NCBI GenBank assembly: GCA_937870685.1
Contig: CALMZX010000029.1
Span: 62,001-126,000, forward strand
Direction: 5' to 3'
DNA: 64,000 nucleotides
Source of the DNA: an uncultured Alphaproteobacteria bacterium
GTDB lineage: Bacteria > Pseudomonadota > Alphaproteobacteria > Rhizobiales > Aestuariivirgaceae
The translations under genes were made by a program, and so were the position numbers. Positions 10,128 to 47,462 of this stretch are shown piece by piece; the first letter of the stretch is position 1; each line of letters starts with the position of its first letter. The notes under the pieces were generated by a model. The model did no database searches, had not been told where the DNA came from, and saw only the letters and a program-made list of their open reading frames with translations.

Positions 10128-10209
10128 CAATCGTCGTTCTTCGCCTTGCGGCGAGGCCACAACACGAGCGGCGGAAGGCAGGCCCTAACCGCGCGCCGGG
10201 AAAGTGCAG

Positions 10210-13687: not shown

Positions 13688-13701
13688 ATTCGGGAGGAGC
13701 T

Positions 13702-13733
13702 GTTTCCGCCCACCCGCCTGTGGGTCCGGAAAC
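13702..13733 (+). other. Intercistronic hairpin upstream of the binding-protein gene
   Basis: GTTTCCG-CCCAC pairs with GTGGG-(TC)-CGGAAAC, a 12-bp stem with a 2-nt bulge, with no U-run after it. Such hairpins between permease and binding-protein genes often protect the binding-protein mRNA from decay; that role is inferred. Confidence 0.5.
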
Positions 13734-13752
13734 AACAACGGGAGTTTGAGAC

Positions 13753-14859: not shown

Positions 14860-14882
14860 GATTGGTCATCAGGCAATGTTTG

Positions 14883-14913
14883 GCGCCGTCCTTCGGGGCG
14901 GCGCTTTCATTTT
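14883..14913 (+). terminator. Rho-independent terminator after the sugar ABC operon
   Basis: The 9-bp stem GCGCCGTCC/GGGCGGCGC (one G-T pair) closes a stable TTCG tetraloop and is followed by TTTCATTTT. It lies 23 nt after the binding-protein stop, separating the importer from the kinase gene. Confidence 0.85.
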
Positions 14914-15008
14914 GACGCAGGGCGAAGGGTGCCCCGGGAGCCGATGCACGCTTGACTTTCCGCGCCACGCTGCAAGTCTGTGACAAAAATGATCGGGTGG
15001 AAAAATAC

Positions 15009-28468: not shown

Positions 28469-28617
28469 CGAAATTGCCTCCAGTAAACAAGGAAAGGCTA
28501 GACCGGGGTCCATGCGGGGCATTGATGCAGGTCAAGATGCGCGGCGGAGCCGCAGCTGCAAAGTGAGCACGCACCTTCCAGGATGCGCGATGGAGGACAT
28601 TCCCGTGCAGCGGGCAT

Positions 28618-29511: not shown

Positions 29512-29607
29512 TCAGTACTTGTAAAGTTCGCGTTTGTCAGGGGCGCAGACCTGATGAAATCTCGCGCATCAACGACAATCAGAAAATGTTCGGCTTGGGA
29601 GGATGAA

Positions 29608-30357: not shown

Positions 30358-30427
30358 GGTCAGTGAACACAACGTCGGTCCACCTCCGAGGCGACATCGG
30401 GAACCGGCATCACATTGGGAGGATAAA

Positions 30428-31864: not shown

Positions 31865-31875
31865 TGTGTTGACAG

Positions 31876-31906
31876 GGGAGGGCCACCCTTGTGGCCCTCC
31901 CTTTTT
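31876..31906 (+). terminator. Strong intra-operon terminator/attenuator
   Basis: An 11-bp perfect stem (GGGAGGGCCAC/GTGGCCCTCCC) with a 4-nt loop is followed directly by TTTTT. It sits between the binding protein and its permease genes, 12 nt after the stop. It probably lowers downstream expression rather than ending the operon, because the next genes have little room for another promoter. Confidence 0.85.
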
Positions 31907-31923
31907 CGCGCTTGCATGACGCC

Positions 31924-32823
31924 ATGAGCACAGACACCTACGGACACCGCCTTTCCGTATTCTCCGACAGGAACTTCAAGTACCTGATGGTCGCACCGGG
32001 TATCCTGATCCTGCTTCTCGTCGGCATTTTTCCGCTCATTTATTCGCTGGTGGTGAGTTTCCAGAACATCACCATGACGGATGTGGACACGTCATTTCAG
32101 GGCCTTCTGAACTACAAGCAGTTGTTCAGGGATGCGCGGCTGTGGCAGGCGTTGGGGCATACCGCGCTGATCACGGCGATTGCCCTGCCGCTGGAACTCG
32201 TCCTCGGATTCCTGCTCGCGCAACTGTTCCTTGAGCGGATGCCGGGGCGGCAGATCTTTGTGGCACTTCTCGTGCTGCCCACCGTACTCTCTCCCATCGT
32301 GGCCGGGGCCACCTGGCGCCTGATGTTTGACGTGCGCTTCGGCCCCATCGGACAGATCGTCAGCTATTTCGCGGGCGAGCCGGTGACCCTGCTGTGGACG
32401 GTGAACCCCAGTCTTGTCTATCCCGCCATCATCATCTGCGAAGTCTGGCAATGGACGCCATTCATGTTCCTGCTCCTGCTTGCGGCGCTTTCCAACGTTG
32501 ACCAGTCGCAACTGGAAGCGGCTGAACTGGATGGTGCGTCCTACTGGCGGGTGCTCCGGCAGATCATCATGCCTGCCATCAAGCCGGTTGTGGCGATCGC
32601 CGTGCTGATCCGCGGGCTCGACCTTTTCCGCATCTTTGACATCATCTGGGCCCTGACCGAGGGCGGTCCGGGCTCCATGACGGAGACAATCTCGCTCTAC
32701 ACTTATGTGATCGGATTCACGCAGTTCGACACCAGCTACACCGCGGCCGTCGCATTCCTCGTGGTAGCGCTGCTCAGCGTGATCGTCACACTGGTCCTGC
32801 GCCGCATGGAGTTGGTGAAGTGA
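31924..32823 (+). CDS. Carbohydrate ABC transporter permease (MalF/UgpA type)
   Basis: The 299-residue inner-membrane protein has six predicted helices. The first is VAPGILILLLVGIFPLIYSLVV. It carries the EAA coupling loop EAAELDGASYWRVLRQIIMP in the C-terminal half. The ATG at 31924 was preferred over GTG 31891, which lies inside the terminator stem. Its stop overlaps the GTG of the second permease (GTGA). With that subunit and the MalK-type ATPase it forms a CUT1-type importer for the preceding binding protein. Confidence 0.92.
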   Translation: MSTDTYGHRLSVFSDRNFKYLMVAPGILILLLVGIFPLIYSLVVSFQNITMTDVDTSFQGLLNYKQLFRDARLWQALGHTALITAIALPLELVLGFLLAQLFLERMPGRQIFVALLVLPTVLSPIVAGATWRLMFDVRFGPIGQIVSYFAGEPVTLLWTVNPSLVYPAIIICEVWQWTPFMFLLLLAALSNVDQSQLEAAELDGASYWRVLRQIIMPAIKPVVAIAVLIRGLDLFRIFDIIWALTEGGPGSMTETISLYTYVIGFTQFDTSYTAAVAFLVVALLSVIVTLVLRRMELVK

Positions 32824-33659
32824 CCGCGCTCACCCGCAGACAGCGCCGCGCGCTCACGCTGGCCATGCGCTATCTCATCGCCGTGGCCGTGACGCTGCTG
32901 TTCCTTTTCCCGGTCTACTGGCTGTTCATGATCTCGTTCAAGACGCCGGAGGAGATCTTCCATGTTCCGCCGCTCTGGCTTCCGGGGCAGATACAGTTCA
33001 ACAACTACTGGGTCCTGTTCAAGGATGGAGACGTGGTCGCCATTCTCAACAGCCTGATCGTGGCGGGCACCAGTTCGGTGATTGCCATGGTGCTGGGCAC
33101 CTTCTGTGCCTACAGCCTCGCCCGATTCAACACGGGCGGGGAGAACCTCGCCATGTGGATCATTTCGCAGCGGATGATCCCGCCCATGGCCGTCGTCTTC
33201 CCGATCTTCCTGATCTACGTGCACTTTGGCATGGTCGACACCTTTTCGGGCCTCATTCTGCTCTACACGGCGTTCAACCTGCCATACGTCATCTGGATGA
33301 TGCGCGGCTACATCGCCGACATTCCGTTGGAACTCGAGGAAAGTGCTCTGGTTGACGGCTGCACGCGCTGGCAGGTGATCTGGAAAGTGGTGTTCCCCAT
33401 GGCGCGGTCCGGCCTGATGGCAACTGCGGTTTTCACTTTTGTCTTTGCGTGGAACGACTTCCTCTTCGCCCTCATCCTCACGCGGACGGAGGTGATCACC
33501 TTCCCGGTCCAACTGACACACTACATGGGTGGGCAGTCCAACTTCTGGGCGAAGATCGCGGCCATGTCGGTGCTCGGTACTTTGCCGATCTTCGTCGCGG
33601 TCACGATCATGCAAAGGTATCTGGTGCGCGGCATTTCGCTAGGCGCGGTCAAGGGTTAG
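32820..33659 (+). CDS. Carbohydrate ABC transporter permease (MalG/UgpE type)
   Basis: The 279-residue inner-membrane protein has six helices and the EAA-type loop [20 protein letters not shown]. It ends in the positively charged [14 protein letters not shown] tail common to MalG-type subunits. The start GTG overlaps the upstream stop. The ATPase gene begins 10 nt downstream. It pairs with the preceding MalF-type permease. Confidence 0.93.
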
Positions 33660-33669
33660 GGAGAACAGG

Positions 33670-34770
33670 GTGGCGGACGTCCGGATTTCAGGTCTCCACA
33701 AATATTATGGTGCCATGCATGCCCTCAAGGGCATCGACCTCACCATTGCTGACGGGGAGTTTGCCGTCTTCGTCGGACCCTCGGGTTGTGGCAAGAGCAC
33801 CTTGCTGCGCACTATCGCCGGGCTGGAAGACGTGGATGCGGGAGAGATTGCAATTGGTGGCGGCGTGGTCAATGACATGCGGCCGCGCGACCGGAACATC
33901 GCCATGGTGTTTCAGAACTATGCGCTCTACCCCTATCTCACGGTATTTGAGAATATCGCCTTCGGATTGCGGGCACGGAAGTTTGCCGATTCCGAAATCA
34001 GCAAGCGGGTCGGTGATGCGGCATCAATGCTGGGCATCACCGCATTGCTGGACCGGTTCCCGCGCCAGTTGTCGGGTGGACAGCGGCAACGTGTTGCCAT
34101 TGGCCGGGCCATTGTGCGGCAGGCGCAGCTCTTCCTCTTCGACGAGCCGCTGTCCAATCTGGATGCCAAGTTGCGAGACGAGATGCGGAGTGAGATCAAG
34201 CGCCTGCACAAGAACATCGCCACCACGATGATCTACGTCACGCACGACCAGGTGGAGGCGATGACTTTGGCGGACCGGATTGTCCTGTTGCGGGATGGCC
34301 GCATTGAACAGCAGGGTTCGCCGCTGGACCTGTTTGAGCGGCCGGCGACGGGATTTGTGGCAGGTTTCCTCGGGTCGCCGACAATCAATCTTATTCCTGC
34401 CGTCATGGACGTGCGCGGCAACTCGGTGGCCGTGAGGTTGACCTCAGGAGAAATGTTGGAACTCCCCGCAGACAAAGTGCAAAGTGCGGCCGGCAGCAAT
34501 GGCAAGAAAGTCATCCTCGGCATCAGGCCACAACATCTGACTCGCGCCGGGCGCGCTGCGCTGCCCAAGGGCCAGATACGGGTCAAGGCGGTGGCCGATC
34601 TGATCCAGCCCACGGGAACGCGTACCTACGTGACTTCGCGGATTGGTGATGTGGCGGTCACTGCGGAATTGGGCGCCCATGATGTGCACGAGCAGGGCGC
34701 AACCCTGGACTATGCCGTGGACATGAATCGCTGTGTGCTGATTGACCCGCAAACAGACAAGGTGTTGTGA
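33670..34770 (+). CDS. Carbohydrate ABC transporter ATP-binding protein (MalK/UgpC type)
   Basis: The 366-residue ATPase has Walker [10 protein letters not shown] near residue 36, Q-loop [13 protein letters not shown], signature [16 protein letters not shown], Walker [13 protein letters not shown] and H-loop [15 protein letters not shown]-terminal TOBE-type region (about 240-366) as in MalK can serve regulation. The start GTG lies 10 nt after the permease stop. A transketolase gene begins two nucleotides after its TGA, so transport and catabolism are in one transcript. Confidence 0.94.
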
Positions 34771-34771
34771 C

Positions 34772-35611
34772 GTGACGGGGAAAATCTCAAATACGAGCCT
34801 CGAACAGCGGGCAAGGAACATCCGGCGCCATGCATTGCGCATGGCCGAGGTGCAAGGGCAGGGCTACATCGCGCAGGCGCTTGGCATTGCGGATGTTCTG
34901 GCCGTGTCCTATTTTGATGGCCTGAATTACAGGGCCCATGATCCGGAATGGGAGGGCCGCGACCGCTTCCTGCTTTCCATCGGCCACTATGCCATTGCAC
35001 TGTATGCCGCATTGATTGAGGCGGGCATCATCCCCGAGGATGAGATTGAAACATACGGATCTGATGACAGCCGTTTGCCGATGTCCGGCATGGCCTCCTA
35101 CACACCGGGAATGGAAATTACCGGCGGATCGCTTGGGCAGGGGCTTTCAATAGCGGTGGGCATGTGTCTCGGCTTGAAGCGGAAACAATCCGGGAGCTTC
35201 GTCTACAACCTGCTCTCCGATGGCGAGCTTGACGAGGGATCCACGTGGGAGGCGGCGATGTCGGCTGCAAGTTTTGGTCTCGACAACCTCATCGCCATTG
35301 TGGATGTCAACAACATGCAGGCCGATGGACCGTCGAAAGGCATCCTGAATTTTGAACCCTTGCATGAGAAATTTGCCGCTTTCGGTTGGCACGTGCAGCG
35401 TGTGGATGGAAATGTGATCGCTGATCTCGTGACTGCCTTTCGCGCCGCCCGCGCATGTGGGCAAAGAAAGCCACGCGTCATCATCTGTGATACCAAGATG
35501 GGAAAGGGTGTTGATTTCCTTGAGGCGCGCGAGCGCAATCACTTCCTCAGGGTCGAGCCGGAGGAATGGAGCAGGGCACTCGAAGCGATCAACGCCGGGC
35601 GTGCGTCATGA
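34772..35611 (+). CDS. Transketolase, N-terminal (TPP-binding) subunit
   Basis: The 279-residue product corresponds to the pyrophosphate-binding half of transketolase. Near the start it has DRFLLSIGHYAIALYAAL, then GSLGQGLSIAVG and the TPP/Mg motif SDGELDEGSTWEAAMSAASFGLDNLIAIVDVNN, followed by GKGVDF. The conserved GDG is SDG here, as in many split enzymes. The GTG at 34772 starts just after the ATPase stop. Its TGA overlaps the ATG of the C-terminal subunit (ATGA), so the two chains are made in equal amount. Split transketolases in sugar operons act on specific ketose phosphates (for example apulose 4-phosphate in AptAB); the substrate here is unknown. Confidence 0.93.
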   Translation: MTGKISNTSLEQRARNIRRHALRMAEVQGQGYIAQALGIADVLAVSYFDGLNYRAHDPEWEGRDRFLLSIGHYAIALYAALIEAGIIPEDEIETYGSDDSRLPMSGMASYTPGMEITGGSLGQGLSIAVGMCLGLKRKQSGSFVYNLLSDGELDEGSTWEAAMSAASFGLDNLIAIVDVNNMQADGPSKGILNFEPLHEKFAAFGWHVQRVDGNVIADLVTAFRAARACGQRKPRVIICDTKMGKGVDFLEARERNHFLRVEPEEWSRALEAINAGRAS

Positions 35612-36627
35612 TGCGCGACAAGTACAGCCGTCCACACGTGGCGGCGCAGGGAGTCCGGCTGAAGACATCGGCCATGATTGCCTCCATTGCCGGTGATGAC
35701 CAGCCAACCCGCATGGCACCCTTCGGCACGGCATTGGTCGAACTTGCAAAAAGCCGGCCGGACGTGGTGGGTTTGTCCGCCGACCTGGCGAAGTATACCG
35801 ATCTGCATGTCTTCGCGCAGGCCCATCCCGACAGGTTCTACCAGATGGGCATGGCGGAACAGTTGCTCATGGGAGCCGCCGCCGGCCTTGCCCGGGAAGG
35901 GTTCCTTCCATTTGCAACCACCTATGCGGTTTTTGCCTCGCGCCGCGCCTATGATTTCATCTGCATGGCGATCGCCGAGGAAAATCTCAATGTGAAGATT
36001 GCCTGTGCCTTGCCTGGTCTCACCACTGGCTATGGTCCCAGCCATCAGGCAACAGAAGACCTTGCTATCTTCCGTGGCCTTCCCAACCTCACGATCATTG
36101 ACCCATGTGATGCGCTGGAGATTGAGCAGGCAGTGCCCGCCGTTGCCGAACATCAGGGCCCGGTCTACATGCGCCTGCTACGGGGCAAGGTCCCGCTTGT
36201 GCTCGACAAGTATGACTACCGCTTTGAGATCGGAAAGGCCAAGCTGCTGCGGGATGGATCGGACGTGTTGTTCATATCAAGCGGGCTGATGACCATGCGG
36301 GCGCTGGAGGCGGCCGCTGAACTTGAGAGATCCGGCACACGCGCCGCCGTGCTTCATGTCGGCACCATCAAGCCACTGGATACCGAAACCATCCTGAACG
36401 AGGCCATGCGCGGCGGGCGAGCCGTAGTTGTCGCCGAGAATCACACCGTGGTTGGCGGGCTTGGCGAAGCCGTGGCTCGCCACCTCGTGCTCAATGGGTT
36501 CTCGGGCCGCTTTCATCACATCGGATTGCCTGACGCCTTCCTCGATGCGGGCGCATTGCCCACGCTCCACGACCGCTACGGCATCTCATCTCAACGCATG
36601 GCCGAAACAATCAGGAACTGGCTTTAG
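35608..36627 (+). CDS. Transketolase, C-terminal (pyrimidine-binding) subunit
   Basis: The 339-residue product carries the pyrimidine-binding domain and the C-terminal domain of transketolase. Key segments are MGMAEQLLMGAAAGLAREG with the TPP-activating glutamate, LPGLTTGYGPSHQATEDLA and HVGTIKPLDTETI. It starts with ATG at 35608 inside the preceding stop; the longer in-frame extension overlaps the first subunit and is not supported. It joins the N-terminal subunit to make a complete enzyme transferring two-carbon ketol units. The lactonase gene follows after 16 nt. Confidence 0.93.
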   Translation: MMRDKYSRPHVAAQGVRLKTSAMIASIAGDDQPTRMAPFGTALVELAKSRPDVVGLSADLAKYTDLHVFAQAHPDRFYQMGMAEQLLMGAAAGLAREGFLPFATTYAVFASRRAYDFICMAIAEENLNVKIACALPGLTTGYGPSHQATEDLAIFRGLPNLTIIDPCDALEIEQAVPAVAEHQGPVYMRLLRGKVPLVLDKYDYRFEIGKAKLLRDGSDVLFISSGLMTMRALEAAAELERSGTRAAVLHVGTIKPLDTETILNEAMRGGRAVVVAENHTVVGGLGEAVARHLVLNGFSGRFHHIGLPDAFLDAGALPTLHDRYGISSQRMAETIRNWL

Positions 36628-36643
36628 AAGACGGGAGGACAAC

Positions 36644-37537
36644 ATGGCTTCGGGGATTTTTGCGCGGAACATTGGGGCACCGGAGGGACCAATCTCTCTG
36701 ACGGACGGTTCAATGTATGTGACGGAGATGTCGAATTCGACATTGAACGTGACGAGGCTGTCTCCGAAAGGTGAGAGAAAGGTCATCAAGAACACGGGAG
36801 GGCGGCCCAATGGGTTGGCCGTTGATGGCGAAGGCCTGATCTGGATTGCCGAGGCCGGGCAGCGTGCACTTGTCTGCATCGATCCTGCGGGCCGGGAACT
36901 GAAGCGCCTCGAAGGGGATGAAAAGCACGGGCGCTTCTTCTTCCCGAACGATCTTGCCTTTGGTCCGGATGGTGATCTCTACATGACGGATTCCGGCATG
37001 GCGCTCACCGATTTTCTCGACGGCCAGAACTTTGTTGACGACTTTATGAATCTGAAATGGGACGGCCGCGTCTACCAGATCGATCCACGCAGCATGAAGA
37101 TTGTCAGGTTGATTGACCGCAAGATCCGCTTCACGAATGGCATCGCTTTTGGTCCGGACAACACGCTCTACGCCAATGCGTCCTTCACCGGCGAAATCTA
37201 CAGCTATGATGTCTTTGGCGCACGCAAGCCGAAGCGCGAGCTGTTTGGCAATGTCCTGCAGAAGGACAAGCAGACCGGCTTCAAAGGCCCGGATGGCATG
37301 AAATTCGGCGTTGATGGTCGCCTCTATTGCACGGTCTATGGCCAGAAGAACGTGACTGTGCTCAACAAGAATGGCAAGGTGGCGGACCGGATTCCGCTTG
37401 ACGGTCCGTGCCCGACAAACCTTGCGTTCTCGCGCGATGGCACGATGATCTTGGTCACAGAAGTTTCAAAAGGCCAGGTGGAACAGCTCGAAGCACCCTG
37501 CCGCGGCCTCGAACTCTTTTATCCCAAGACTTCGTGA
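36644..37537 (+). CDS. SMP-30/gluconolactonase/LRE family protein
   Basis: The 297-residue product is a six-bladed propeller of the SMP-30 family. Visible metal-site and blade motifs are GAPEGPISL at the start, RPNGLAVDGEG, FPNDLAFGPDGDLYMTDSG and FTNGIAFGPDNTLY, the last two giving the asparagine/aspartate ligands. Members hydrolyse sugar lactones. GGGAGGAC precedes the ATG at 36644. As the last gene of the transporter-transketolase run it suggests that an aldonolactone is an intermediate, probably made by a dehydrogenase acting on an aldose. Phosphotriesterase-like or regulatory roles are less likely. Confidence 0.88.
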   Translation: MASGIFARNIGAPEGPISLTDGSMYVTEMSNSTLNVTRLSPKGERKVIKNTGGRPNGLAVDGEGLIWIAEAGQRALVCIDPAGRELKRLEGDEKHGRFFFPNDLAFGPDGDLYMTDSGMALTDFLDGQNFVDDFMNLKWDGRVYQIDPRSMKIVRLIDRKIRFTNGIAFGPDNTLYANASFTGEIYSYDVFGARKPKRELFGNVLQKDKQTGFKGPDGMKFGVDGRLYCTVYGQKNVTVLNKNGKVADRIPLDGPCPTNLAFSRDGTMILVTEVSKGQVEQLEAPCRGLELFYPKTS

Positions 37538-37839
37538 CCCCCGTTGTTGTCGTTCGCATTCGCGACGGCCTCATCGCCGCTCTCGGCCGTCAACACTGAC
37601 GGAACTGGTCCGAAGACTTCCGCACGGACGTGGTGCGAATCTCGGGGTGCGCCAGCCTCTTGCCGGAGGGCCGAAGCAGCTGGGCCTTCGTGCTGATGCG
37701 GAGAAGTCATCGGAAGGTCGGCCCGGCCTGTGGCATTTGACGAAAGGAGGGACTGGTTGGATAGTTGCCACAACTGCGGGCTCTGTTGCGCGCCGAACGG
37801 CATCTGCGCATCAATTGAAACGGCAGCGGGAGACTGGAC
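37538..37839. other. Non-coding gap with possible weak terminator
   Basis: This 302-bp stretch has no convincing gene; the minus-strand frame across it lacks family features. A GACGGCC/GGCCGTC inverted repeat at 37564-37591 without U-run may end the transketolase-lactonase transcript. A promoter for the dioxygenase must lie in the second half but is not recognisable. Confidence 0.4.
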
Positions 37840-38784
37840 ATGGTCAAGAAAATTGTCAGGCGCAAGCCAGCAGACAAAAAGGTCCCGGCGATAAAAACGA
37901 AATCCCGGAACTCGGAGGCCCAGTGCTTCTTCACGGTCAGGGACAGCGTGAAAGTGGTTCAGGGGCGCGTGGGTCAGAAAGCAAACCAGCGCGTGAAATT
38001 CATCGCAGACGCATTGGTCAGGCATCTCCACGCCTTCATCAAGGAAACCCGTCCGACCATGGACGAATGGATGCAGGGCATCGGGTTTCTCACCCGAACC
38101 GGTCATCTCAGCAATGATTGGCGGCAGGAATTCATCCTGCTGTCCGATGTGCTTGGAGTCTCAATGCTCGTGGAAACACTCAACCATCAAAAGACGTCGG
38201 GCGAGACTGAATCGACAGTGCTGGGGCCATTCTATGTGAAGAATGCGCCGCAGTATCCCAATGGCGCCAACATCTGCCTTGATGGAAAGGGCGAGGCTGT
38301 GCTTGTCCGCGGTCGCGTGACCAACGCGAGAGGCAAGCCCATTGCGGGAGCCCTGCTGGAAATCTGGCAGGCGAATGAGGATGGCTTCTACGATGTCCAG
38401 CAAAAAGGCACCCAGCCTGACATGAATTTGCGAGGTGTGTTTACTTCGGATGAAGACGGAAAATACAGCTTCCGGACAGCCTACCCGCGCCACTATCCCA
38501 TCCCCTATGATGGAAGTGTGGGAGACCTTTTGAAAGCGCTGGACCGGAACCCCAACCGTCCGGCACACATGCATTTCATGGTATCGGCAGAAGGCCATGA
38601 AACGCTCGTGACACATATCTTCACGCCGGACTGCCCATGGCTCAGGGATGATGCTGTCTTCGGAGTCAAGGAAAGCCTGATTGCCGACTTCAGGATTGTG
38701 GATGACCAGCAGCGCGCGGCGGATCTGGGCTTGCCCAATCCGTTTCGCGAGGTGGAGTGGAACGTGGTATTGGCAGCTACATGA
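37840..38784 (+). CDS. Intradiol ring-cleavage dioxygenase (hydroxyquinol 1,2-dioxygenase-like)
   Basis: The 314-residue product has the helical N-terminal dioxygenase domain with EWMQGIGFLTRTGHLSNDWRQEF and the LGPFYVKNAP junction. The beta-sandwich catalytic domain follows. The four ferric ligands are visible: the tyrosine of DGFYDVQ, the tyrosine in PRHYPIPYDG, and two histidines in RPAHMHFMVSAEGH. Residue patterns match hydroxyquinol/catechol dioxygenases, which open 1,2-diol aromatic rings to maleylacetate- or muconate-type acids. The lysine-rich first 25 residues are unusual. GGGAGA precedes the ATG. It is coupled by ATGA overlap to a BKACE-family gene. Hydroxyquinol specificity is likely but not proven. 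Confidence 0.88.
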   Translation: MVKKIVRRKPADKKVPAIKTKSRNSEAQCFFTVRDSVKVVQGRVGQKANQRVKFIADALVRHLHAFIKETRPTMDEWMQGIGFLTRTGHLSNDWRQEFILLSDVLGVSMLVETLNHQKTSGETESTVLGPFYVKNAPQYPNGANICLDGKGEAVLVRGRVTNARGKPIAGALLEIWQANEDGFYDVQQKGTQPDMNLRGVFTSDEDGKYSFRTAYPRHYPIPYDGSVGDLLKALDRNPNRPAHMHFMVSAEGHETLVTHIFTPDCPWLRDDAVFGVKESLIADFRIVDDQQRAADLGLPNPFREVEWNVVLAAT

Positions 38785-39632
38785 ATTCATCACCATGCAT
38801 CATCTGTGTCGCCATCACCGGATCGCTCCCGACCAAGGAGAACAACCCGGCTGTGCCCATCAGCATCGCTGAGCAGATCGAAAGCACCCATGAGGCATTC
38901 GAGGCCGGTGCGTCGATCGCGCATTGCCATGTGCGCGACGACGAAGGCAAACCCACCTCGGACCCGGAACGCTTCGCGCGGCTCAAGGCCGGAATTGAGA
39001 AGCATTGCCCCGGCATGATCATTCAGCTTTCCACCGGTGGCCGCTCCGGCGCTGGCAAGGCGCGGGGTGGAATGTTGCCATTGCGGCCAGACATGGCCTC
39101 ACTGTCGGTTGGCTCCAACAACTTCCCGACCCGCGTCTATGAGAACCCGCCGGACTTGGTCGACTGGTTGGCGCAGGAGATGATTGCCCATGACGTGAAA
39201 CCGGAGATCGAGGCATTTGACCTGTCACATATCGTACAGGCTGCGGCGATGCTCAAAGACGGCAGGTTGAAGGGGCCGCTTTATGTGCAGTTTGTCATGG
39301 GCGTCAAAAACGCCATGCCGGCGGATGAACGCATTTTTGACTTCTATGTTGAGACACTGGACCGCCTCGCCCCTGGTTCGCAGTGGTGTGCGGCAGGCAT
39401 CGGACAGTCGCAGGTCACGGTGAATGAGTGGTGCATCGCCAAGGGTGGGCACACCCGGACGGGAATGGAAGACAACGTGCGGCTCGACCGCTTCACGCTG
39501 GCGCCTTCGAATGCGGCGCTTGTGAAGCGTGCCGTGGGTATCTGCGCAACCTATGGCCGCCCGGTCGCCACATGGCGGCAGGCAAGGAAAATCCTCGGAC
39601 TGGAAAAGGCAGTGGGATCCATCGGCCTGTAA
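38781..39632 (+). CDS. Beta-keto acid cleavage enzyme (BKACE, DUF849) family protein
   Basis: The 283-residue product is a TIM-barrel Zn enzyme of the BKACE family, which converts a beta-keto acid plus acetyl-CoA into acetoacetate and a new acyl-CoA. Family motifs are CVAITGS at the start, the zinc-binding AHCHVRDDEG near residue 47, STGGRSG, FVMGVKNAMPA near 170 and GGHTRTGMEDN. The ATG at 38781 overlaps the dioxygenase stop, so the pair is translationally coupled. That link suggests the substrate is the beta-keto acid made by ring cleavage (maleylacetate or 3-oxoadipate). The 3-keto-5-aminohexanoate activity of the founding member is less likely here. Confidence 0.88.
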   Translation: MNSSPCIICVAITGSLPTKENNPAVPISIAEQIESTHEAFEAGASIAHCHVRDDEGKPTSDPERFARLKAGIEKHCPGMIIQLSTGGRSGAGKARGGMLPLRPDMASLSVGSNNFPTRVYENPPDLVDWLAQEMIAHDVKPEIEAFDLSHIVQAAAMLKDGRLKGPLYVQFVMGVKNAMPADERIFDFYVETLDRLAPGSQWCAAGIGQSQVTVNEWCIAKGGHTRTGMEDNVRLDRFTLAPSNAALVKRAVGICATYGRPVATWRQARKILGLEKAVGSIGL

Positions 39633-40785: not shown

Positions 40786-42027
40786 TCAACGCAGGTCGCG
40801 CACGGCCGTCATGAAGTCATTGCAGGCCTGGGTCAGGTCCGGCTTCTGAAACAATGCGCCAGACATGAGAAGCGCGGTATCCTGGCCAAAGACGTCCACA
40901 AATTCCGCCAGGCGGTCCATGGTGACGCCCCCGCCGGGCATCGGCAACGCGGGCCTGAGATTTCCACAAGGGCGTTGCAAGGCTTCAGTGACAGACCTGC
41001 AAGCCTTGCGCGGGATATCGAAGCGGCCACCAAAGCCGGGCATGATGGAAAGATCGGCTCCCGCCAGCCGGGGAAACAAGCCGAAGACCAGTGGCATGGA
41101 GATAGCCGGGTTGGGCGGGCGGCAGAGTGCGCCCTGCCAGGCGCAATGGCTGATCACAGGAAGATCGAGGCCAGGGAGGCTGGAGACCATGCGAATGGAA
41201 TCGAGTCCCATCGGTCCGGGAAGGATTTCGATGCCGGTGGCCCCCTTCTCCTTGGCAAAATAAGCCCGTTCAGCAAGGCCTTCCATCGGACCCGTGATAT
41301 TGGCGAAGTAGATGCAAGGTTTCCCGGTCTTGGAACTGGCGTCCGCAATGGCTGCGGCGCAGCGTTCCACCCGCTCGTGGAAAGGGGCAAATACCTGCGT
41401 GGAAACACCATCATCTTCCTTGATGATATCCATGCCGCCAAGCGCCAAGGCACTGGCGATGCGCGCAAGTTCCCGGGGCGAAGCGCCAACGGGCTTCAGG
41501 GCCGTAGCGCCAAGGGCACCATTCTTCACACCCAGGAGTGAGCGAATCCCGTCAACACCAAACCGTGGCCCGGATGATGCCCCTGCGAAGCCTCGCGGCA
41601 ATTCCACATCCTGCAACTCTATCACGGGCAGGAAACTGCCGTTTCCGGACAGCAGTGTGAGCAGCGTGGTGAGACCTCCGCTGGCCACCTCTGACGCATA
41701 GGAGAGTATGCACGCGCTGCTGCCATCGGGATTGGCGGAGATGCTGTCGACCCGTCCCACAATGTCTGACGCCAGAAAACCCTCGGGAAGAACATCCGAC
41801 GGGAGTTCGACGGTGTGTTCATGCACAAGAAAGCGGGCAATCTCCGCAGCCTTCGCTGGCGCGCATCGAAACCTGTAGTGCGCATGGATGCGTTCGCCGG
41901 AAAGCGGCAAGCCTGAAACTTCAAGCAAGGGATGCCCGGAGGAGCTGTTCAACTCTCGAAGGGCGGAACGCGTTCCCGGACTGTCTGGCCGGCTCCAAAC
42001 CGGCTGTGGCAAGAGGCCAGCCATCAT
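40786..42027 (-). CDS. RuBisCO-like protein (form IV large-chain homologue)
   Basis: The 413-residue product shows the RuBisCO large-chain fold. GIRSLLGVKNGALGATALKP gives the first-strand lysine, GGMDIIKEDDG corresponds to the metal-carbamate strand (KDDE in true RuBisCO), ISHCAWQGAL has the active-site histidine position, and PMPGGGVTMD the phosphate loop. Loop 6, normally with a catalytic lysine, reads PGFGGRFDI, so carboxylase activity is not expected. RuBisCO-like proteins act as enolases, isomerases, or sugar-acid phosphate transcarboxylases/decarboxylases. Start choices are ATG 42027 or 42024 after TGAGG. It is the last gene of an operon with a ribose-type importer and an SDR, implying a step in sugar or sugar-acid breakdown. 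Confidence 0.93.
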   Translation of the reverse strand: MMAGLLPQPVWSRPDSPGTRSALRELNSSSGHPLLEVSGLPLSGERIHAHYRFRCAPAKAAEIARFLVHEHTVELPSDVLPEGFLASDIVGRVDSISANPDGSSACILSYASEVASGGLTTLLTLLSGNGSFLPVIELQDVELPRGFAGASSGPRFGVDGIRSLLGVKNGALGATALKPVGASPRELARIASALALGGMDIIKEDDGVSTQVFAPFHERVERCAAAIADASSKTGKPCIYFANITGPMEGLAERAYFAKEKGATGIEILPGPMGLDSIRMVSSLPGLDLPVISHCAWQGALCRPPNPAISMPLVFGLFPRLAGADLSIMPGFGGRFDIPRKACRSVTEALQRPCGNLRPALPMPGGGVTMDRLAEFVDVFGQDTALLMSGALFQKPDLTQACNDFMTAVRDLR

Positions 42028-42034
42028 CACGGCC

Positions 42035-42787
42035 TCAGCTCAGGACAATGCCGCCATCAACATTGAGTGTCTGGCCCGTGACAAAAGCGCTGTCATCAGA
42101 ACAGAAGAACGCCACAGGCCCCGCCACGTCTTCGGGATCACCGATACGGGCCATGGCCGTCCTCGATTGCCAGATCGCGCGGGTTGCGGGATCGTCCAGA
42201 TTGACGCGGCCCATGTCGGTGTAGATGATGCCCGGACAGATGCAGTTCGCGGTGATGCCAAGTGGCCCGACTTCTTGCGCAAGCACGCGGGTGAATCCCA
42301 TGACGGCGGCCTTTGACGCGGAATAATGCGCCTGTTCAGGCGCGCCGTGCTTGCCGCCAATCGATGCGATATTGCAGATGCGGCCATATTTCTGCTTCTT
42401 CATGAGCGGCAGAACGGCCTGGATCACCAGGAAAGTGCCTTTGGCATTCACATCCATCACGGCATCCCACGCCTGCTCCGGCAAAGTCTCGACTTCAGAG
42501 GCAATGAGGATACCCGCGTTGTTGACAACAGCATGCACCGTGCCCAAGTCATTGACGATGCTGCCGATCATGTTCTCAACTTCCGACTTCGATGAGACAT
42601 CGGCGAAATAACACTTCGCCTGTCGGCCCATTGCCGCGATCTCTGCCGCAACGTTCTCGAGTGACGTCTTCTGTTTTGGGATGTCGTTCAATGCGAGGTC
42701 GAAGCCGCGCTCCGCAAGGCCAAGCGCAATGGCCTTGCCGATTCCACGGCTGGCACCGGTCACAAGGGCGATTCTGGATTGTGTCAT
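42035..42787 (-). CDS. SDR-family oxidoreductase
   Basis: The 250-residue classical short-chain dehydrogenase has VTGASRGIGKAIA at the N-terminus, NNAGI near residue 90, the catalytic HYSASKAAV, and a C-terminal TLNVDGG. The ATG at 42787 has GAGG 7 nt upstream; a GTG four codons earlier is possible. It lies between the importer permease and the RuBisCO-like gene with a 7-nt gap to the latter, so it probably oxidises the imported sugar before the RuBisCO-like step. FabG is the closest general family, but the context argues against fatty-acid synthesis. Confidence 0.9.
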   Translation of the reverse strand: MTQSRIALVTGASRGIGKAIALGLAERGFDLALNDIPKQKTSLENVAAEIAAMGRQAKCYFADVSSKSEVENMIGSIVNDLGTVHAVVNNAGILIASEVETLPEQAWDAVMDVNAKGTFLVIQAVLPLMKKQKYGRICNIASIGGKHGAPEQAHYSASKAAVMGFTRVLAQEVGPLGITANCICPGIIYTDMGRVNLDDPATRAIWQSRTAMARIGDPEDVAGPVAFFCSDDSAFVTGQTLNVDGGIVLS

Positions 42788-42795
42788 GTGGAACC

Positions 42796-43785
42796 TCACA
42801 GGAGATTGAGTTTCGTGGTACGTGACACGATGGCCACGGCAACGAGTATGATGATGCCTTTCACAATGGCCTGGATGTAGGTGTCCATGCCAATGAGGTT
42901 CAGGCCGTTGTTGATGATGCCAATGAACAGGGCACCGAAGAACGTGCCGAGGACTGTGGCCGTTCCGGGCCTGAACATCGTCATGCCGATGAAGACGGTG
43001 GCGAGGCCGTCCAGCAGGTAACGTTCACCCACGTTGGGCTGGCCGGAACCAAGACGCGCGGCCAGCAAAGTGCCTGCAATGACGGAAAAGACCGAACACA
43101 CGACCAATGCAGCCGAGCGATAGAGATTGACCCTGATGCCAGAGAGTTCCGCCGCCTTGCGGTTGCCGCCGACGGCATAGATGTAACGGCCGAAGACTGT
43201 CCTCTCCATGATGAACCAGGCGATGCCCACAATGGCCAGCATGAAGAATGCAAGGACCGGTACTCCGGCAATTCGGCCTTGCCCGAGCCATGTGTAGGTT
43301 TCGGGCAGGCCGCCGTAAATCGCCCGGCCATCGGTAAGAAGATAGTTGATGCCAAACAGGATCGAGCCCGTTGCCAGGGTTGCGATGAGGGATGGTATGC
43401 CCACTCCGGTCACAAGTGCCGCGTTGACGCCACCGACAACAAGTCCGGACAGGAGGCCGGCACCGGCGGCCACCGGGAGCGAATATCCGTTAATCAGCAA
43501 CAGTGGCACCAGAATGCCGGACAAGCCGACGGCGTAGCCCACCGAAAGATCCATCTCACGCGCCGCGAATCCGAATGTGAGTCCCGCTCCCACGATTGTC
43601 AGCATCGAAATCTGCTGCGCGATGTTCAAAAGGTTTGTTGCGGTGAGAAAACGCTCCACAAACAGGGCAAAACCCAGGAAAATGAGAGCAAGCACGACGA
43701 CCGTCGAGTACCGGTTGACGGTATCCTTGCGGAGACCGAGAAACATATCGTGTTCTTGCAAGTCGGTTGAGGCTGCGGTGTTCAT
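42796..43785 (-). CDS. Sugar ABC transporter permease (RbsC type)
   Basis: The 329-residue membrane protein has about nine or ten helices, AAREMDLSVGYAVGLSG near residue 75 and the coupling loop FGRYIYAVGGNRKAAELSGI near 215. It is the sole permease of this importer (a homodimer is expected, as for RbsC). Its start ATG overlaps the stop of the ATPase gene as ATGA. The SDR gene starts 8 nt downstream. Confidence 0.93.
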   Translation of the reverse strand: MNTAASTDLQEHDMFLGLRKDTVNRYSTVVVLALIFLGFALFVERFLTATNLLNIAQQISMLTIVGAGLTFGFAAREMDLSVGYAVGLSGILVPLLLINGYSLPVAAGAGLLSGLVVGGVNAALVTGVGIPSLIATLATGSILFGINYLLTDGRAIYGGLPETYTWLGQGRIAGVPVLAFFMLAIVGIAWFIMERTVFGRYIYAVGGNRKAAELSGIRVNLYRSAALVVCSVFSVIAGTLLAARLGSGQPNVGERYLLDGLATVFIGMTMFRPGTATVLGTFFGALFIGIINNGLNLIGMDTYIQAIVKGIIILVAVAIVSRTTKLNLL

Positions 43786-45284
43786 GCTCCGGCTCCTGTC
43801 ATCGCGGAAATGAAGGCGGACTCCGAGAATTGCCCCCGTTGAAGTTCCTTGGCCGGTTCCTGGTTGACGAATGAAATCACGCGGTCCGCGATGGTCTCGA
43901 TTTCGATCAGGTCTGAAGAGGCAATCAGGATGGCAGCCCCGGAGGCGGCAAGGCGGCGCATTTCTGCATAGATCTCCGCCTTAGAACCGATATCGACGCA
44001 CTCGGTGGGTTCGATGAAGATCAGCAGCTTGTAGCGTCCCTCACCCCCATAGAGCCACTTGCCAATGGAGGCCTTCTGCTTGTTGCCGCCTGACAGTGTG
44101 CGGATCTGCTGTGACGAGGAGTGGGCTTTGATATTCAGGAGCTTGGTCACGCGTGCCGTCTCGGTTTCTTCACGGCCAATCGAAAGCACCCCCGCGCGTG
44201 CCGCGTGGCCAGTGTGCACCATGGCAAGGGTTTCGCGGACATTCCACTCACCGATCAACGAATTTTCCATGCGATGGTCTGGTATCAGGGCAATTCCCGC
44301 TTTCAGCATGTCGCGGACGGTTCCAACTTTCTGGGATTCACCGCAGATGGATAAGGTGCGCACCCGCACCCCGACGGGGTTGTGCAGTGAGCGCGCGAAT
44401 CCGATATGGCCTGCACCGCTCAGTCCGATCAGCCCGACGATTTCGCCGCCGCTGATCTGGAAGGAGTCAATGTGGGTGCGACCCACTTGCCAGTCTTCAA
44501 TCTGAAGGATCACTGGGCCTGTTGATTTGGGAACAGTGCCGCCAGTTTGGTCCGACTGTCCTCCGCCCCGGCGCAGCATCATGTCCACCATTTGCGCCTC
44601 GGAGAGCGTGTCGGCCTTGTCCGTGGTGATCTTGCGGCCGTCGCGAAGCACTGTGATCACGTCAGACAGCGCCTTGATCTCGGTCAGGAAGTGGCTGATC
44701 AGCACCACGCCAACACCGCGTTCGGGCAATGAGCGTATGATCTTCCAAAGCTGTTCTTTTTCCCGCGCCGGCAATGTCGCTGTCGGCTCATCAAGGATCA
44801 GCAGCCTGACGTCGTGCCGCAACGCACGCACGATCTCGATGACTTTGCGCTCCGCCATGGCCAGTGTGGAGACCGGCACATCGAGATCAAAATCCATCTT
44901 GGGAAACCACTTGGCAACAAGCGCTTTGGCCGTTTGCACAAGGCGTCCGGCAAGAATGATGCCGCCCTTCTGAGGCTCGGCGCCGAGCAGGATATTTTCG
45001 GCCCCCGTCAGTGACAGCACCAGGCTGCCCTCCTGGCTCACATGCGCTATGCCTTGGGACAGGGCGGCGCGCGGAGATTTGATCCTGATTGGCTTGCCAT
45101 CCTTGCAGATGCGACCCGCTGTTGGCTGCTGGCTTCCGCCAAGCACGTTGACAAGCGTGGATTTGCCAGCACCGTTCTCGCCGATGATGCCGTGCACCTC
45201 ATCGGTCGAGAAATCCACGCTCACGCCATCCAGCGCGCGCGTGCCTGGGAACTGCACACTGATGTCCTGCAGGGCAATTTGCAT
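43782..45284 (-). CDS. Sugar ABC transporter ATP-binding protein (RbsA type)
   Basis: The 500-residue double ATPase has Walker A GENGAGKST near residue 39, STLAMAERKVIEIVRAL as first signature region and LLILDEPTATLP as first Walker B. The degenerate second site has GLSGAGHIGFA, and the second signature is LSGGNKQKASIGKWL. The second Walker B reads LLIFIEPTECVDIG, where the usual D is replaced by I-E, so the second site is altered. The start at 45284 fits RbsA alignment, and the 29-codon extension is unsupported. It works with the preceding binding protein and the following permease. Confidence 0.92.
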   Translation of the reverse strand: MQIALQDISVQFPGTRALDGVSVDFSTDEVHGIIGENGAGKSTLVNVLGGSQQPTAGRICKDGKPIRIKSPRAALSQGIAHVSQEGSLVLSLTGAENILLGAEPQKGGIILAGRLVQTAKALVAKWFPKMDFDLDVPVSTLAMAERKVIEIVRALRHDVRLLILDEPTATLPAREKEQLWKIIRSLPERGVGVVLISHFLTEIKALSDVITVLRDGRKITTDKADTLSEAQMVDMMLRRGGGQSDQTGGTVPKSTGPVILQIEDWQVGRTHIDSFQISGGEIVGLIGLSGAGHIGFARSLHNPVGVRVRTLSICGESQKVGTVRDMLKAGIALIPDHRMENSLIGEWNVRETLAMVHTGHAARAGVLSIGREETETARVTKLLNIKAHSSSQQIRTLSGGNKQKASIGKWLYGGEGRYKLLIFIEPTECVDIGSKAEIYAEMRRLAASGAAILIASSDLIEIETIADRVISFVNQEPAKELQRGQFSESAFISAMTGAGA

Positions 45285-45380
45285 GAGGTTTCTTTCACGA
45301 ACTGCCAAGCATTTTGCATGTGGTACAGTTCGGCGTGAATGGGCAGGATGGACCAACGCCCATCCTGCCACGTGCGGTGT

Positions 45381-46322
45381 TTACAGGAAGTCCTTGCAGT
45401 TCTTCTTGGTCACCAGCGGAGCATCCATGTAGACGGTCTTTGACGGGATGACGTCATCCTCGGCCTTTTTTTCGACGACAATGGAATTGATCCATTCGCC
45501 GACCTGCTTGCCCATCTTCTCGAAGGGCTGGCTGACCGTTGCAATCATCATGCTGTCCGGCTTGCACACCTCGGCAACAGCCTGCGGGTGGCCGTCAATG
45601 CCGATGACCTTGACGCCCGTAAGCCCGGCGGCAGTCATGGCGTTGATCGTTGCCTGGGCAGGTTCATCCCAAGGGGCCCAGACAGCGTTGATGTCCTTGC
45701 CGAAGCGTGCGGCATAGTCTTCCATCGACTTGGAGGTGTCTTCGAAGAAAGCCTTGTAGTCGATGTTATGCTCTTCAAGAACCTTCACGCCCGGATATTC
45801 CTTGAGCACCTTTTCCATCACATCGCCGCGCTTGCGGGTGCCGTGGTGGTCGGCCATGCGGAAGAATACGAGATTGCCCTGCCCACCCATCTGATCGAGC
45901 AGGTAGGTCGAAACGTCTGCCGACATCGCCCAGTTGTTGGTGGTGATGTCAACGACGACGCCGGGCGTGTAGCCGGAGTCGACCGCGAAGACCGGAATCT
46001 TTGCGGCGTTTGCAGCTTCAAGGGCGGCCTTTGAGGCGCGCAGGTCCGACATGGTGACGATGATGGCGCCAACACCGCGCGATGCCGCGTCCTGGATGTT
46101 CGCAGCCGTCTTTTCGCCCGAACCGCCGCTGTCGAGATAGCTGACGTTCCAGTCTGCTTTTCCTGTTTCCTTCAGCCATGCATCAAAGCCAGCCTTGACG
46201 CGCTGCTCCGACTGGGCAGCCGCGTTCGACTGGACCCACGCGATATCAAGTGCGAGTGCCCCGGTGCTCGCCAGAGTTGCCGCAGAGGCAGCAACCAGCA
46301 ATCCTGTGATCCACTTTTTCAT
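45381..46322 (-). CDS. Sugar ABC transporter substrate-binding protein (RbsB type)
   Basis: The 313-residue periplasmic protein has a signal peptide (MKKWITGLLVAASAATLASTGALA, cleavage before LDIAW). The type I periplasmic binding fold has AASRGVGAIIVTMSD and the hinge/ligand segment KVIGIDGHPQAVAEV. AGGAGG lies 6 nt before the ATG at 46322, which is decisive for this start. It is the first gene of the importer-SDR-RuBisCO-like operon, with the SorC-type regulator divergent. The ligand is unknown; a sugar, polyol or branched sugar derivative is expected. Confidence 0.93.
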   Translation of the reverse strand: MKKWITGLLVAASAATLASTGALALDIAWVQSNAAAQSEQRVKAGFDAWLKETGKADWNVSYLDSGGSGEKTAANIQDAASRGVGAIIVTMSDLRASKAALEAANAAKIPVFAVDSGYTPGVVVDITTNNWAMSADVSTYLLDQMGGQGNLVFFRMADHHGTRKRGDVMEKVLKEYPGVKVLEEHNIDYKAFFEDTSKSMEDYAARFGKDINAVWAPWDEPAQATINAMTAAGLTGVKVIGIDGHPQAVAEVCKPDSMMIATVSQPFEKMGKQVGEWINSIVVEKKAEDDVIPSKTVYMDAPLVTKKNCKDFL

Positions 46323-46404
46323 TCCATTCCTCCTCATTTGTGCCATTCACTTTGTGTTTTCGTCTCGGTAGCCCACCGACACGCAAAAGGTTGCAAACCG
46401 TTCT

Positions 46405-46445
46405 ACAAATGTCAATGTACAAAACATCTGTAACGGTACATTTGT
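46405..46445. promoter_or_regulatory. Operator-like inverted repeats in the divergent SorC/ABC promoter
   Basis: ACAAATGT (46405-46412) and ACATTTGT (46438-46445) form widely spaced inverted arms. Within them AATGTAC (46414-46420) and GTACATT (46436-46442) form a second pair. The AT-rich block lies between the binding-protein and regulator starts, immediately before the regulator gene, as expected for a SorC/DeoR-like operator controlling both directions. Confidence 0.6.
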
Positions 46446-46469
46446 AATTCAATGGGTTGAAATGAAGAG

Positions 46470-47462
46470 ATGAACGGTGAAGCTCAAGAAGATCAAATAC
46501 TTATGGCGCGGGCGGCGTGGCTTTATCACATCGGGGGGCTGAACCAGGAAGCCGTCGCCAATCGCCTCGGCACCACGAGGGCGCGTGTCAACAAGATGCT
46601 GGCTGAGGCCCGCGAGACGGGTTTGGTGAGCGTTTCGATTGCACCCGGCAACATCGGGCTGCTCGAGATCGAGAACACGATCAAGGCACGCTATGGTCTG
46701 GAAACCTGCATCTGCACGCCGCCACTCGGATGGGACATCCGGGTTCCGGAAACGGAGCCGTTGCTCTCCAAATTTGCCTTCAAGGCCGTGGGCGCGGCGG
46801 CGGCGTCGCACCTGCGCGCGCATCTGAACGAAAACCCGGATGCCGTCGTCGGCACAGGCTGGGGGCGCACATTGGAACAACTGACCTTGAATTTCGCAGG
46901 GGTCGCGGCACCGCGAGCGAAATTCATCAGCCTCATGGGTTCACTCAACGCCAACTCCTCCTACAACCCCTATGAAGTTGTCCTGTCGCTGGCGCGCGCC
47001 ACGGGTGGCGAAGGCTACGTCATGCCCGTGCCATTCATTGCGGACAGTGTTGAGGACCGGCAAGTCCTGCTCTCCCAGCGCACGGTCCGCCGCACGCTTG
47101 AAATCGCCCGTTCCACCACGGTCGGCTACATCTCCATTGGCGAACTCAAGGAAAACTCCCTGTTGCGGCGCCAGGACATGGTCACCGCCCAGGAAGTATC
47201 GGAATTGCGTTTGGCGGGGGCCGTGGGCGACACGAACGGCATTTTCTTCGATGCGGAAGGACAGGCTGTCAGGCATTCACTGAATGACCGCACGATCGCT
47301 CTTGGCTTCGACGATCTGCGCAAGTCCAACATGATTGCGCTCGTAGCAGGCGCGAGCAAACTGACGGCTGCCCGCGGCTTTCTGAAAAGCGGTGTGGCCA
47401 AAGGCTTGATCGTTGATGGCGACACGGCCCTGTTGTTGGCAGAGGATGGCGCAAAGCCGTGA
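46470..47462 (+). CDS. SorC-family sugar-binding transcriptional regulator
   Basis: The 330-residue product has an N-terminal HTH (LNQEAVANRLGTTRARVNKMLAEARETGLV, about 24-53) and a C-terminal phosphosugar-binding domain like that of SorC/DeoR-type proteins (VGTGWGRTLEQL near 125, SLMGSL, and the C-terminal KSNMIALVAGASKLTAARGFL). Such regulators sense a sugar or sugar phosphate. It is divergent from the ribose-type importer-SDR-RuBisCO-like operon and is its probable local regulator. Confidence 0.92.
   Translation: MNGEAQEDQILMARAAWLYHIGGLNQEAVANRLGTTRARVNKMLAEARETGLVSVSIAPGNIGLLEIENTIKARYGLETCICTPPLGWDIRVPETEPLLSKFAFKAVGAAAASHLRAHLNENPDAVVGTGWGRTLEQLTLNFAGVAAPRAKFISLMGSLNANSSYNPYEVVLSLARATGGEGYVMPVPFIADSVEDRQVLLSQRTVRRTLEIARSTTVGYISIGELKENSLLRRQDMVTAQEVSELRLAGAVGDTNGIFFDAEGQAVRHSLNDRTIALGFDDLRKSNMIALVAGASKLTAARGFLKSGVAKGLIVDGDTALLLAEDGAKP

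Follow-up and report, generated by a model that had tools for sequence, protein, structure and literature searches.

A RuBisCO-like protein next to the DeepYkr group closes a sugar-importer operon of an uncultured alphaproteobacterium and probably acts on a phosphorylated sugar

The window analyzed here, a 64,000-nucleotide stretch of contig CALMZX010000029.1 from an uncultured member of the Aestuariivirgaceae, carries at 40786-47462 five open reading frames (ORFs) on the minus strand and a divergent regulator gene on the plus strand, each with a clear Pfam family match (Table 1). The SorC regulator, a ribose-type ABC importer, a short-chain dehydrogenase/reductase (SDR) and a RuBisCO-like protein (RLP) make up one compact operon, of which the RLP is the last gene. 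By its sequence, the RLP is a side branch next to the DeepYkr-type RLPs and is not a DeepYkr protein proper on the features tested. Its probable role is to shift a carbonyl group along a phosphorylated sugar and thereby open the sugar to breakdown. Put more specifically, we propose a carbonyl shift on a ketose phosphate, in the breakdown of a ketose or (deoxy)polyol, a reading to which we give a probability of roughly 45%. RLPs are a test bed for the origin of RuBisCO and few of their functions are known. Lying outside the functional clades known so far, the window RLP lends itself to clean testing: its importer protein offers a ligand screen, a candidate kinase is at hand and there is a sister cluster for comparison.

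As set out in the passages of PMC5893883 that treat them, DeepYkr RLPs, a label that goes with the activity of the proteins from R. rubrum and R. palustris (RLP1, RPA2169), carry out a 1,3-isomerisation of 5-(methylthio)ribulose 1-phosphate that yields 1-(methylthio)xylulose 5-phosphate and 1-(methylthio)ribulose 5-phosphate. A maximum-likelihood tree of 47 rows joins the window RLP to an RLP from a Vibrio nigripulchritudo plasmid (44.2% identity, support 100/99) and places the two as the sister group of the 39 other DeepYkr-type rows (96/92). Together, these separate from the MtnW, Photo and OiaX-like rows with support of 98/94. The bootstrap of this tree has not converged and its outgroup branches, which are long, meet; the same branching order (94 and 93) comes out of a quick tree of 63 rows. 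From 103 other DeepYkr-type rows, seven were dropped (fused, short or motif-unread) and 40 thinned out, which left 56 in the alignment and the 63-row tree, and the 47-row tree was thinned further to 39, with the form I row left out. The placement in the form IV tree called for by an earlier note on this DNA, made from the letters and their ORFs, therefore puts the protein outside the OiaX and MtnW rows and next to the DeepYkr-type RLPs. Both sequence and fold single out 3qfw of Rhodopseudomonas palustris as the closest solved structure. Foldseek aligns it to the structure model of the window RLP (mean predicted local distance difference test score 90.4, residues 1-30 of low confidence) with 34% identity and a TM-score of 0.94 on the target. 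The 3qfw protein scores 324 bits with the cupin-linked RLP of Terrarubrum versus 205.5 bits with the window RLP, and this far better fit is in line with its being a DeepYkr protein.

Active-site residues are cited in spinach numbering, with the residue roles of RuBisCO. The metal motif reads K-E-D-D at protein residues 204-207, and the equivalents of Lys175, Lys201, Asp203, His294, Gly380 and Gly381 are all kept. As in the sister group, the place of Lys177 is an alignment gap and that of Lys334 (loop 6) holds an Arg, so that neither of these two Lys residues of CO2-fixing RuBisCO is present. At position 204, Asp stands in the RLPs of the window and of Vibrio, His in all 56 of the other DeepYkr-type rows aligned, and Glu in six RuBisCO, MtnW, Photo and OiaX-like rows. 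Among the unthinned and unaligned DeepYkr-type rows, 101 of 103 have K-x-D-H (the motif was not read in L128 and L146); its use as a marker of the DeepYkr family is our own reading of the aligned rows. Residues 72, 122, 125, 128, 296, 369 and 381 also set both members of the pair apart from the consensus of at least 90% of the sister rows. Alignment columns past 204 deviate from spinach numbering; 294, 295, 298, 334 and 379-381 were placed by motifs, and 327 is not placeable. The separation of the branch rests on the tree and on position 204, since identity is insufficient for it: L079, a main-clade RLP with K-x-D-H, is also 44% identical to the window RLP in its best segment. The window RLP and the DeepYkr RLPs are alike in nearest clade, in fold and in the equivalents of Lys175, Lys201, Asp203 and His294; they are unlike in that the window RLP lies outside the sampled clade, has Asp rather than His at position 204 and is encoded in a sugar-importer operon. 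Among the scanned neighbours of the window RLP (28.6-47.5 kb) there is no cupin, MtnA or MtnK gene; MtnP was not searched for.

The best NCBIfam matches of the window RLP are the models of MtnW (2,3-diketo-5-methylthiopentyl-1-phosphate enolase), yet the scores, 159.4 versus a cut-off of 409 bits and 114.4 versus 513.6 bits, led to the rejection of that assignment; the two proteins have the RuBisCO superfamily in common. The earlier note had stated that the operon stands without methionine-salvage genes and without an evident DUF1537-type kinase, and none of either kind is recognised among the scanned neighbours. It had also held that clustering with the enzymes of isoapionate breakdown, with the rest of that pathway in the genome, would make the system a known one. 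The host draft genome (155 contigs, 92.2% complete) has two RuBisCO_large matches, the window RLP and a protein of contig C117 (L077:7677-10324). The latter is a true OiaX, a 3-oxo-isoapionate-4-phosphate decarboxylase, with 757.7 bits against a cut-off of 700 (NCBIfam NF042437), and the sole PF07005 (DUF1537) match of the genome adjoins it. This OiaX and the DUF1537 kinase are the known isoapionate-type pair of the host. A sugar-acid kinase does exist elsewhere in the genome, then, but beside a different RLP on a different contig; no DUF1537 (OiaK-type) kinase lies beside the window RLP, which differs from OiaX in clade and in kinase class within the common RuBisCO superfamily. That the window RLP itself acts on 3-oxo-isoapionate 4-phosphate or is a hamamelose-type RLP is close to negligible as a reading: the general family resemblance speaks for it, while a score of 66.7 bits against the 700 of the OiaX model, the distance of the OiaX rows in the tree and the presence of the host's OiaX elsewhere speak against it, the comparison being with OiaX rather than with a hamamelose RLP. 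Of the sugar or sugar-acid route of unassigned chemistry that had been suggested, the sugar part stands, the RLP being neither MtnW nor an isoapionate enzyme. The sugar-acid part has lost ground, since the kinases of the relatives are FGGY (sugar or ketose) kinases, and an acid is not the first guess for the substrate because the window RLP adjoins the DeepYkr 1,3-isomerases in the tree.

The ORFs, their coordinates and their family matches agree with the earlier description of an uptake operon under a SorC regulator with the RLP as its final gene. The permease stop and the SDR start overlap by 4 bp (42796-42799) and 4 bp separate the SDR stop from the start of the RLP frame, which makes the RLP a well-formed last gene of the operon. 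The importer, SDR and regulator belong to an operon type that has no RLP in the loci inspected, namely six plasmids (Tritonibacter, Nitratireductor, Sinorhizobium, Rhizobium CIAT894, Shinella and Roseateles) and three genomes. In this parent type, the genes run SorC, binding protein, ATPase, permease, E1 alpha, E1 beta, E2, carboxymuconolactone-decarboxylase-like, FGGY kinase and SDR. E1 alpha, E1 beta, E2 or an E2-like protein (in two pieces in Sinorhizobium) and the FGGY kinase occur in the operon in all nine loci, the carboxymuconolactone-decarboxylase-like gene and the orthologous SDR in eight, and an RLP in none of the stretches fetched. The E2 of one genome, G657, scores above the acetoin-dehydrogenase E2 cut-off (320.7 versus 307 bits); in the locus of another, G568, the binding-protein frame has one stop codon and identities are lower. 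Between the window and Tritonibacter, identity is 56% for SorC, 78% for the binding protein, 60% for the ATPase, 78% for the permease and 76% for the SDR. The window SDR is also 77% identical to that of G657 and 71-75% identical to relatives in nine plasmid records, the same nine that hold the binding-protein relatives at 76-79%. Elsewhere no relative exceeds 60%, among 257 plasmid records for the binding protein and the 5000 best-scoring for the SDR.

The word ACAAATGTA lies between the SorC and binding-protein genes in eight of nine stretches compared (the window and eight relatives, G568 not included). It occurs once in the 64-kb window, where 0.05 occurrences are expected, and TTGACATTTGTA adjoins it; from these comparisons both are operator-like sites. 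Regulator, operator, importer and SDR are thus orthologous between the window and the parent type. The parent-type operons have a kinase and an acetoin-dehydrogenase-like complex and no RLP was seen in them, whereas the window has the reverse. In the host draft genome there is no orthologue of the parent-type kinase or E1 alpha, the best matches being 32% and 43%, respectively; among the relatives, Tritonibacter versus G657 or G516 gives 73-75% for these proteins, and G568 gives 55 and 67%. The window operon thus shares with the parent type its functions of sensing, uptake and oxidation, and has an RLP where the parent type has the kinase and the cleavage complex. Further clusters with FGGY kinases and acetoin-dehydrogenase-like E1 alpha and beta occur on the host's own contigs C151, C153 and C99 (L220, L221 and L222), and the host genome is rich in this FGGY and acetoin-dehydrogenase-like logic.

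The sister RLP on the V. nigripulchritudo plasmid (NZ_AP027047.1) sits in a run of ABC ATPase, transketolase N half, transketolase C half, RLP and FGGY kinase, with an SDR, an importer and a SorC-like regulator alongside. This cluster and the window have in common the sister RLPs, the SDR, the SorC-like regulator (26%) and a sugar importer; they differ in that the Vibrio RLP lies inside the transketolase-RLP-kinase run and in that its importer is of another type. Contig C84 of the host encodes an FGGY kinase that is 62% identical to the RLP-linked kinase of Vibrio. When the C84 kinase is compared with plasmids, only two V. nigripulchritudo records among 1100 matched records exceed 60%, with the next at 45%. 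Beside it, divergent at the contig edge, is an SDR with 64% identity to the first SDR in the operon of Tritonibacter and 47% to that of the Vibrio cluster. The FGGY kinase encoded within the window at 14952-16481 was rejected as a partner of the RLP: it is a xylulokinase (512 versus 380 bits) in an importer operon of its own and only 24-27% identical to the RLP-linked and parent-operon kinases.

In the genomes and plasmids searched, the branch formed by the window and Vibrio RLPs appears sparsely populated. No relative above 39% identity to the window RLP turns up in 385 class-level genomes (17 with E-values up to 1e-40, own included) or in 397 order-level genomes (25 with E-values up to 1e-60, own included), and the best relatives in 36 other genomes of the genus reach 35-36%. 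In 72,556 plasmid records, the best are the two V. nigripulchritudo records. Of these plasmid records, 364 have an RLP match and 13 were opened, all but three as DeepYkr-type loci. A contig scan across genomes returns L079 as the closest among the best 80 of 495 relatives, and the viral contigs searched give no match. Eight of 24 other order-level genomes were examined, and their RLPs are nearer to the Ponticoccus or Agrobacterium RLP (47-84%). Among the rows placed in the tree or read for the motif (from 61, 385 and 397 genomes, 72,556 plasmids and the best 80 of 495 relatives), the branch gains no member other than the V. nigripulchritudo RLP.

Pairing of an RLP with a split transketolase recurs well beyond Vibrio. 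Neighbours were counted on the same strand by blast matches above 80 bits at 80 DeepYkr-type RLP loci of named genomes, a set that is not random, being those most like the window. In 52 of them, the RLP has a transketolase C half no more than 3 kb away (within 300 bp in 44), and in 44 it has an N half at up to 3 kb. The 52 linked loci span ten named phyla, with four loci lacking a phylum, and 14 of them have an MtnA-like gene within 8 kb. No transketolase was found at the four loci linked to a cupin methylsulfurylase or at the six linked to an FGGY kinase within 8 kb; an opposite-strand cupin (L140) was not counted, and six of the 28 transketolase-free loci have less than 2.3 kb upstream. The V. 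nigripulchritudo cluster is unlike the six FGGY loci in carrying kinase and transketolase together. All six are from Chloroflexota; four carry a gene resembling DhaL at up to 8 kb, and in three of these a DhaK-like gene is equally close (at 8.2 kb in the fourth); the two others are truncated upstream. In L082, L085, L091 and L135, dihydroxyacetone-kinase-like subunits, a ribose-type importer, the FGGY kinase and the RLP stand in one operon, and dihydroxyacetone may be a product there. On seven plasmids (six from Rhizobiaceae, one from Mariluticola), the genes follow the order aldolase/SDR, importer, mtnK, mtnA, transketolase pair and RLP, with a SorC regulator in the three whose stretches reach far enough. 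A passage of PMC8914248 states, with no data shown, that the genes around rlp in two Rhizobium strains are connected with the transport and assimilation of ribose. In the open-access literature searched, we found no account of the link between RLPs and split transketolases, and the recurrent pairing of an RLP with a dedicated split transketolase appears to be an outlet for the RLP reaction that is not yet described. The pairing suggests that a thiamin enzyme cleaves the ketose phosphate which the RLP produces. Its presence in ten named phyla would open unassigned RLP chemistry to direct testing.

From the genes, the operon, the orthology, the tree and the residues, we infer the following reactions and substrate. 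SorC would sense a polyol or sugar, the importer would bring the same compound in, and the SDR would oxidise it to a ketose, which an FGGY kinase encoded elsewhere, with that of contig C84 as the best candidate, would phosphorylate. By homology, the carbamylated Lys and Asp203 with Asp204 on Mg2+, and Lys175 as the base, would enolise the ketose phosphate. Successive proton transfers would then shift the carbonyl along the chain, as DeepYkr RLPs do with 5-methylthioribulose 1-phosphate. The product, in which the carbonyl would adjoin the end of the chain, would probably be the phosphate of a 1-deoxyketose or of an ordinary ketose; a thiamin enzyme would then cut it, in the Vibrio relative presumably the transketolase. 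The window RLP is, on this evidence, likely to work like a ketose-phosphate isomerase. We favor the carbonyl shift because the RLP stands next to the 1,3-isomerases in the tree, keeps the enolase machinery and is closest in fold to 3qfw; because the importer, SDR, regulator and operator are orthologous to those of operons with an FGGY kinase; because the Vibrio RLP lies between a split transketolase and an FGGY kinase of which the host has a 62% copy; and because an FGGY kinase accompanies a DeepYkr-type RLP in the six Chloroflexota loci. Two old papers reportedly describe the formation of 1-deoxyketoses by pyruvate and acetoin dehydrogenases and the phosphorylation of 1-deoxy-D-xylulose by xylulokinase. 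In chemical terms, cleavage of a 1-deoxyketose accords with the acetoin-dehydrogenase-like complex of the parent operons. A deoxypolyol as the true substrate is a guess, and the literature searched held nothing on point about a deoxypolyol pathway. It is conceivable, if rather doubtful, that DeepYkr-like RLPs serve a general two-step route, in which the carbonyl of a (deoxy)ketose phosphate is shifted and the resulting 1-deoxyketose phosphate is cut by a thiamin enzyme, be it an acetoin-dehydrogenase-like complex or a dedicated split transketolase. On that view, the RLPs of the window and of Vibrio would be an early side branch for sugar or polyol catabolism rather than methionine salvage, and the window RLP would be an addition to a type of importer operon whose other examples supply the acetoin-dehydrogenase-like version.

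Several observations weigh against the carbonyl-shift proposal. The operon itself has neither a kinase nor a cleavage enzyme. The C84 kinase is connected to the RLP only through phylogeny, because it is unlinked in the assembly, near a contig edge, and its stretch lacks ACAAATGTA. It is classed only as FGGY, its best curated model being XylB at 269 bits against a cut-off of 380. Two Deinococcus relatives of this kinase (45 and 43%) are found in sugar clusters, among importer genes and a fucose isomerase or polyol dehydrogenases, where no RLP is annotated; this indicates that the kinase family is not specific to RLPs. As for the RLP, besides L079, 29 DeepYkr rows are 36-43% identical to it, and the change of His204 to Asp might mean another reaction.

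Such a reaction, an enolate chemistry other than the 1,3-carbonyl shift (decarboxylation, hydrolysis or epimerisation of a keto-sugar phosphate), we consider unlikely: RLPs are known to vary, as MtnW and OiaX show, and both members of the branch deviate at 204 and at the seven further residues given above, but the core catalytic residues and the fold are those of the isomerase group. A shade less probable is a role in salvage, in which the RLP would be an ordinary isomerase of 5-methylthioribulose 1-phosphate (or 5-deoxyribulose 1-phosphate) fed by MtnK and MtnA of contig C146. That contig (L169) does hold an MtnA (419.9 bits, cut-off 279) and an MtnK homologue (48% to that of Agrobacterium) with a ribose-type ABC importer, and no other DeepYkr-type RLP is present among the two RuBisCO_large matches of the host draft genome. 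However, the MtnK and MtnA genes have this importer of their own and are unlinked to the RLP, which lies outside the other DeepYkr rows of the tree, the MtnA- and MtnK-linked ones included, and differs from them at 204; the genome also gives no match to the cupin methylsulfurylase, in a search that had no positive control. Beside MtnA and MtnK on C146, no RLP, cupin or aldolase is recognised against the reference set.

The window also has a split transketolase, in a run that converges on the RLP operon, and it was first taken as the partner of the RLP because of the Vibrio and Rhizobiaceae clusters. The run (29554-39632) comprises an SDR, an importer, a UgpC-like ATPase, the split transketolase, an SMP-30-like protein, an intradiol dioxygenase and a BKACE enzyme, the last matching the 3-oxoadipate:acetyl-CoA acetyltransferase model at 491 versus 350 bits, with a divergent LysR gene beside it. 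A single pathway in which this transketolase cleaves the product of the RLP is possible, if slightly more improbable again than salvage: the pair lies about 4 kb away, and split transketolase C halves are near the RLP in the sister cluster and in the 52 of 80 related loci. Yet the pair resembles that of an NGR234 LysR-SDR-transketolase operon with no annotated RLP in 18 kb, its C half is 36-43% identical to the RLP-linked ones (51 of the 52 loci with a long match), and the convergent run has its own LysR regulator and importer, ACAAATGTA being nowhere else in the window. Among 61 genomes, four besides the host's own have a C-half match with an E-value up to 1e-50; two of them, G049 and G058 (C half 73%), have only distant RuBisCO-family matches, at 30 and 29%. 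Weakened by the NGR234 and Hartmannibacter operons and by these identity figures, the convergent transketolase is of an NGR234-like, RLP-free type and is not counted in the system. No transketolase of the RLP-linked subfamily lies beside the window RLP, this pair being the nearest. The carbonyl shift on a ketose phosphate remains our preferred reading.

Table 1. Features of the RLP operon and of the convergent split transketolase (coordinates are those of the window)
Feature	Position	Strand	Evidence
RuBisCO-like protein (RLP), last gene of operon	40786..42030	-	Pfam RuBisCO_large 73.4 bits, cut-off 30.1; tree; active-site columns; structure model
SDR dehydrogenase	42035..42799	-	Pfam adh_short_C2; orthologue of last SDR in RLP-free operons
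ABC permease, ribose-type	42796..43785	-	Pfam BPD_transp_2; 78% to Tritonibacter permease
ABC ATPase, ribose-type, two ABC domains	43782..45371	-	Pfam ABC_tran (two stretches); 60% to Tritonibacter ATPase
Periplasmic sugar-binding protein	45381..46322 (frame open to 46346)	-	Pfam Peripla_BP_4; 76-79% to nine plasmid records
Two operator-like sites	TTGACATTTGTA 46404-46415; ACAAATGTA 46437-46445	-	Sequence word comparison
SorC-type sugar-binding regulator, divergent	46470..47462	+	Pfam Sugar-bind; 56% and 69% to orthologous regulators
Split transketolase of convergent operon	34742..36627 (N 34742-35611, C 35566-36627)	+	79% and 73% to NGR234 pair

Some of the starts in Table 1 call for comment. 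TTG codons follow the annotated start of the RLP, so the true start may be internal, and that of the ATPase probably lies inside its frame. The binding protein probably starts at 46322, an ATG inside the 45381-46346 frame with AGGAGG just before it.

Elsewhere in the window, a single frame of 1650 residues occupies 23570-28522. A second sugar operon, at 10204-16481, consists of an ABC importer, a RhaS-like binding protein and the xylulokinase (512 bits, cut-off 380).

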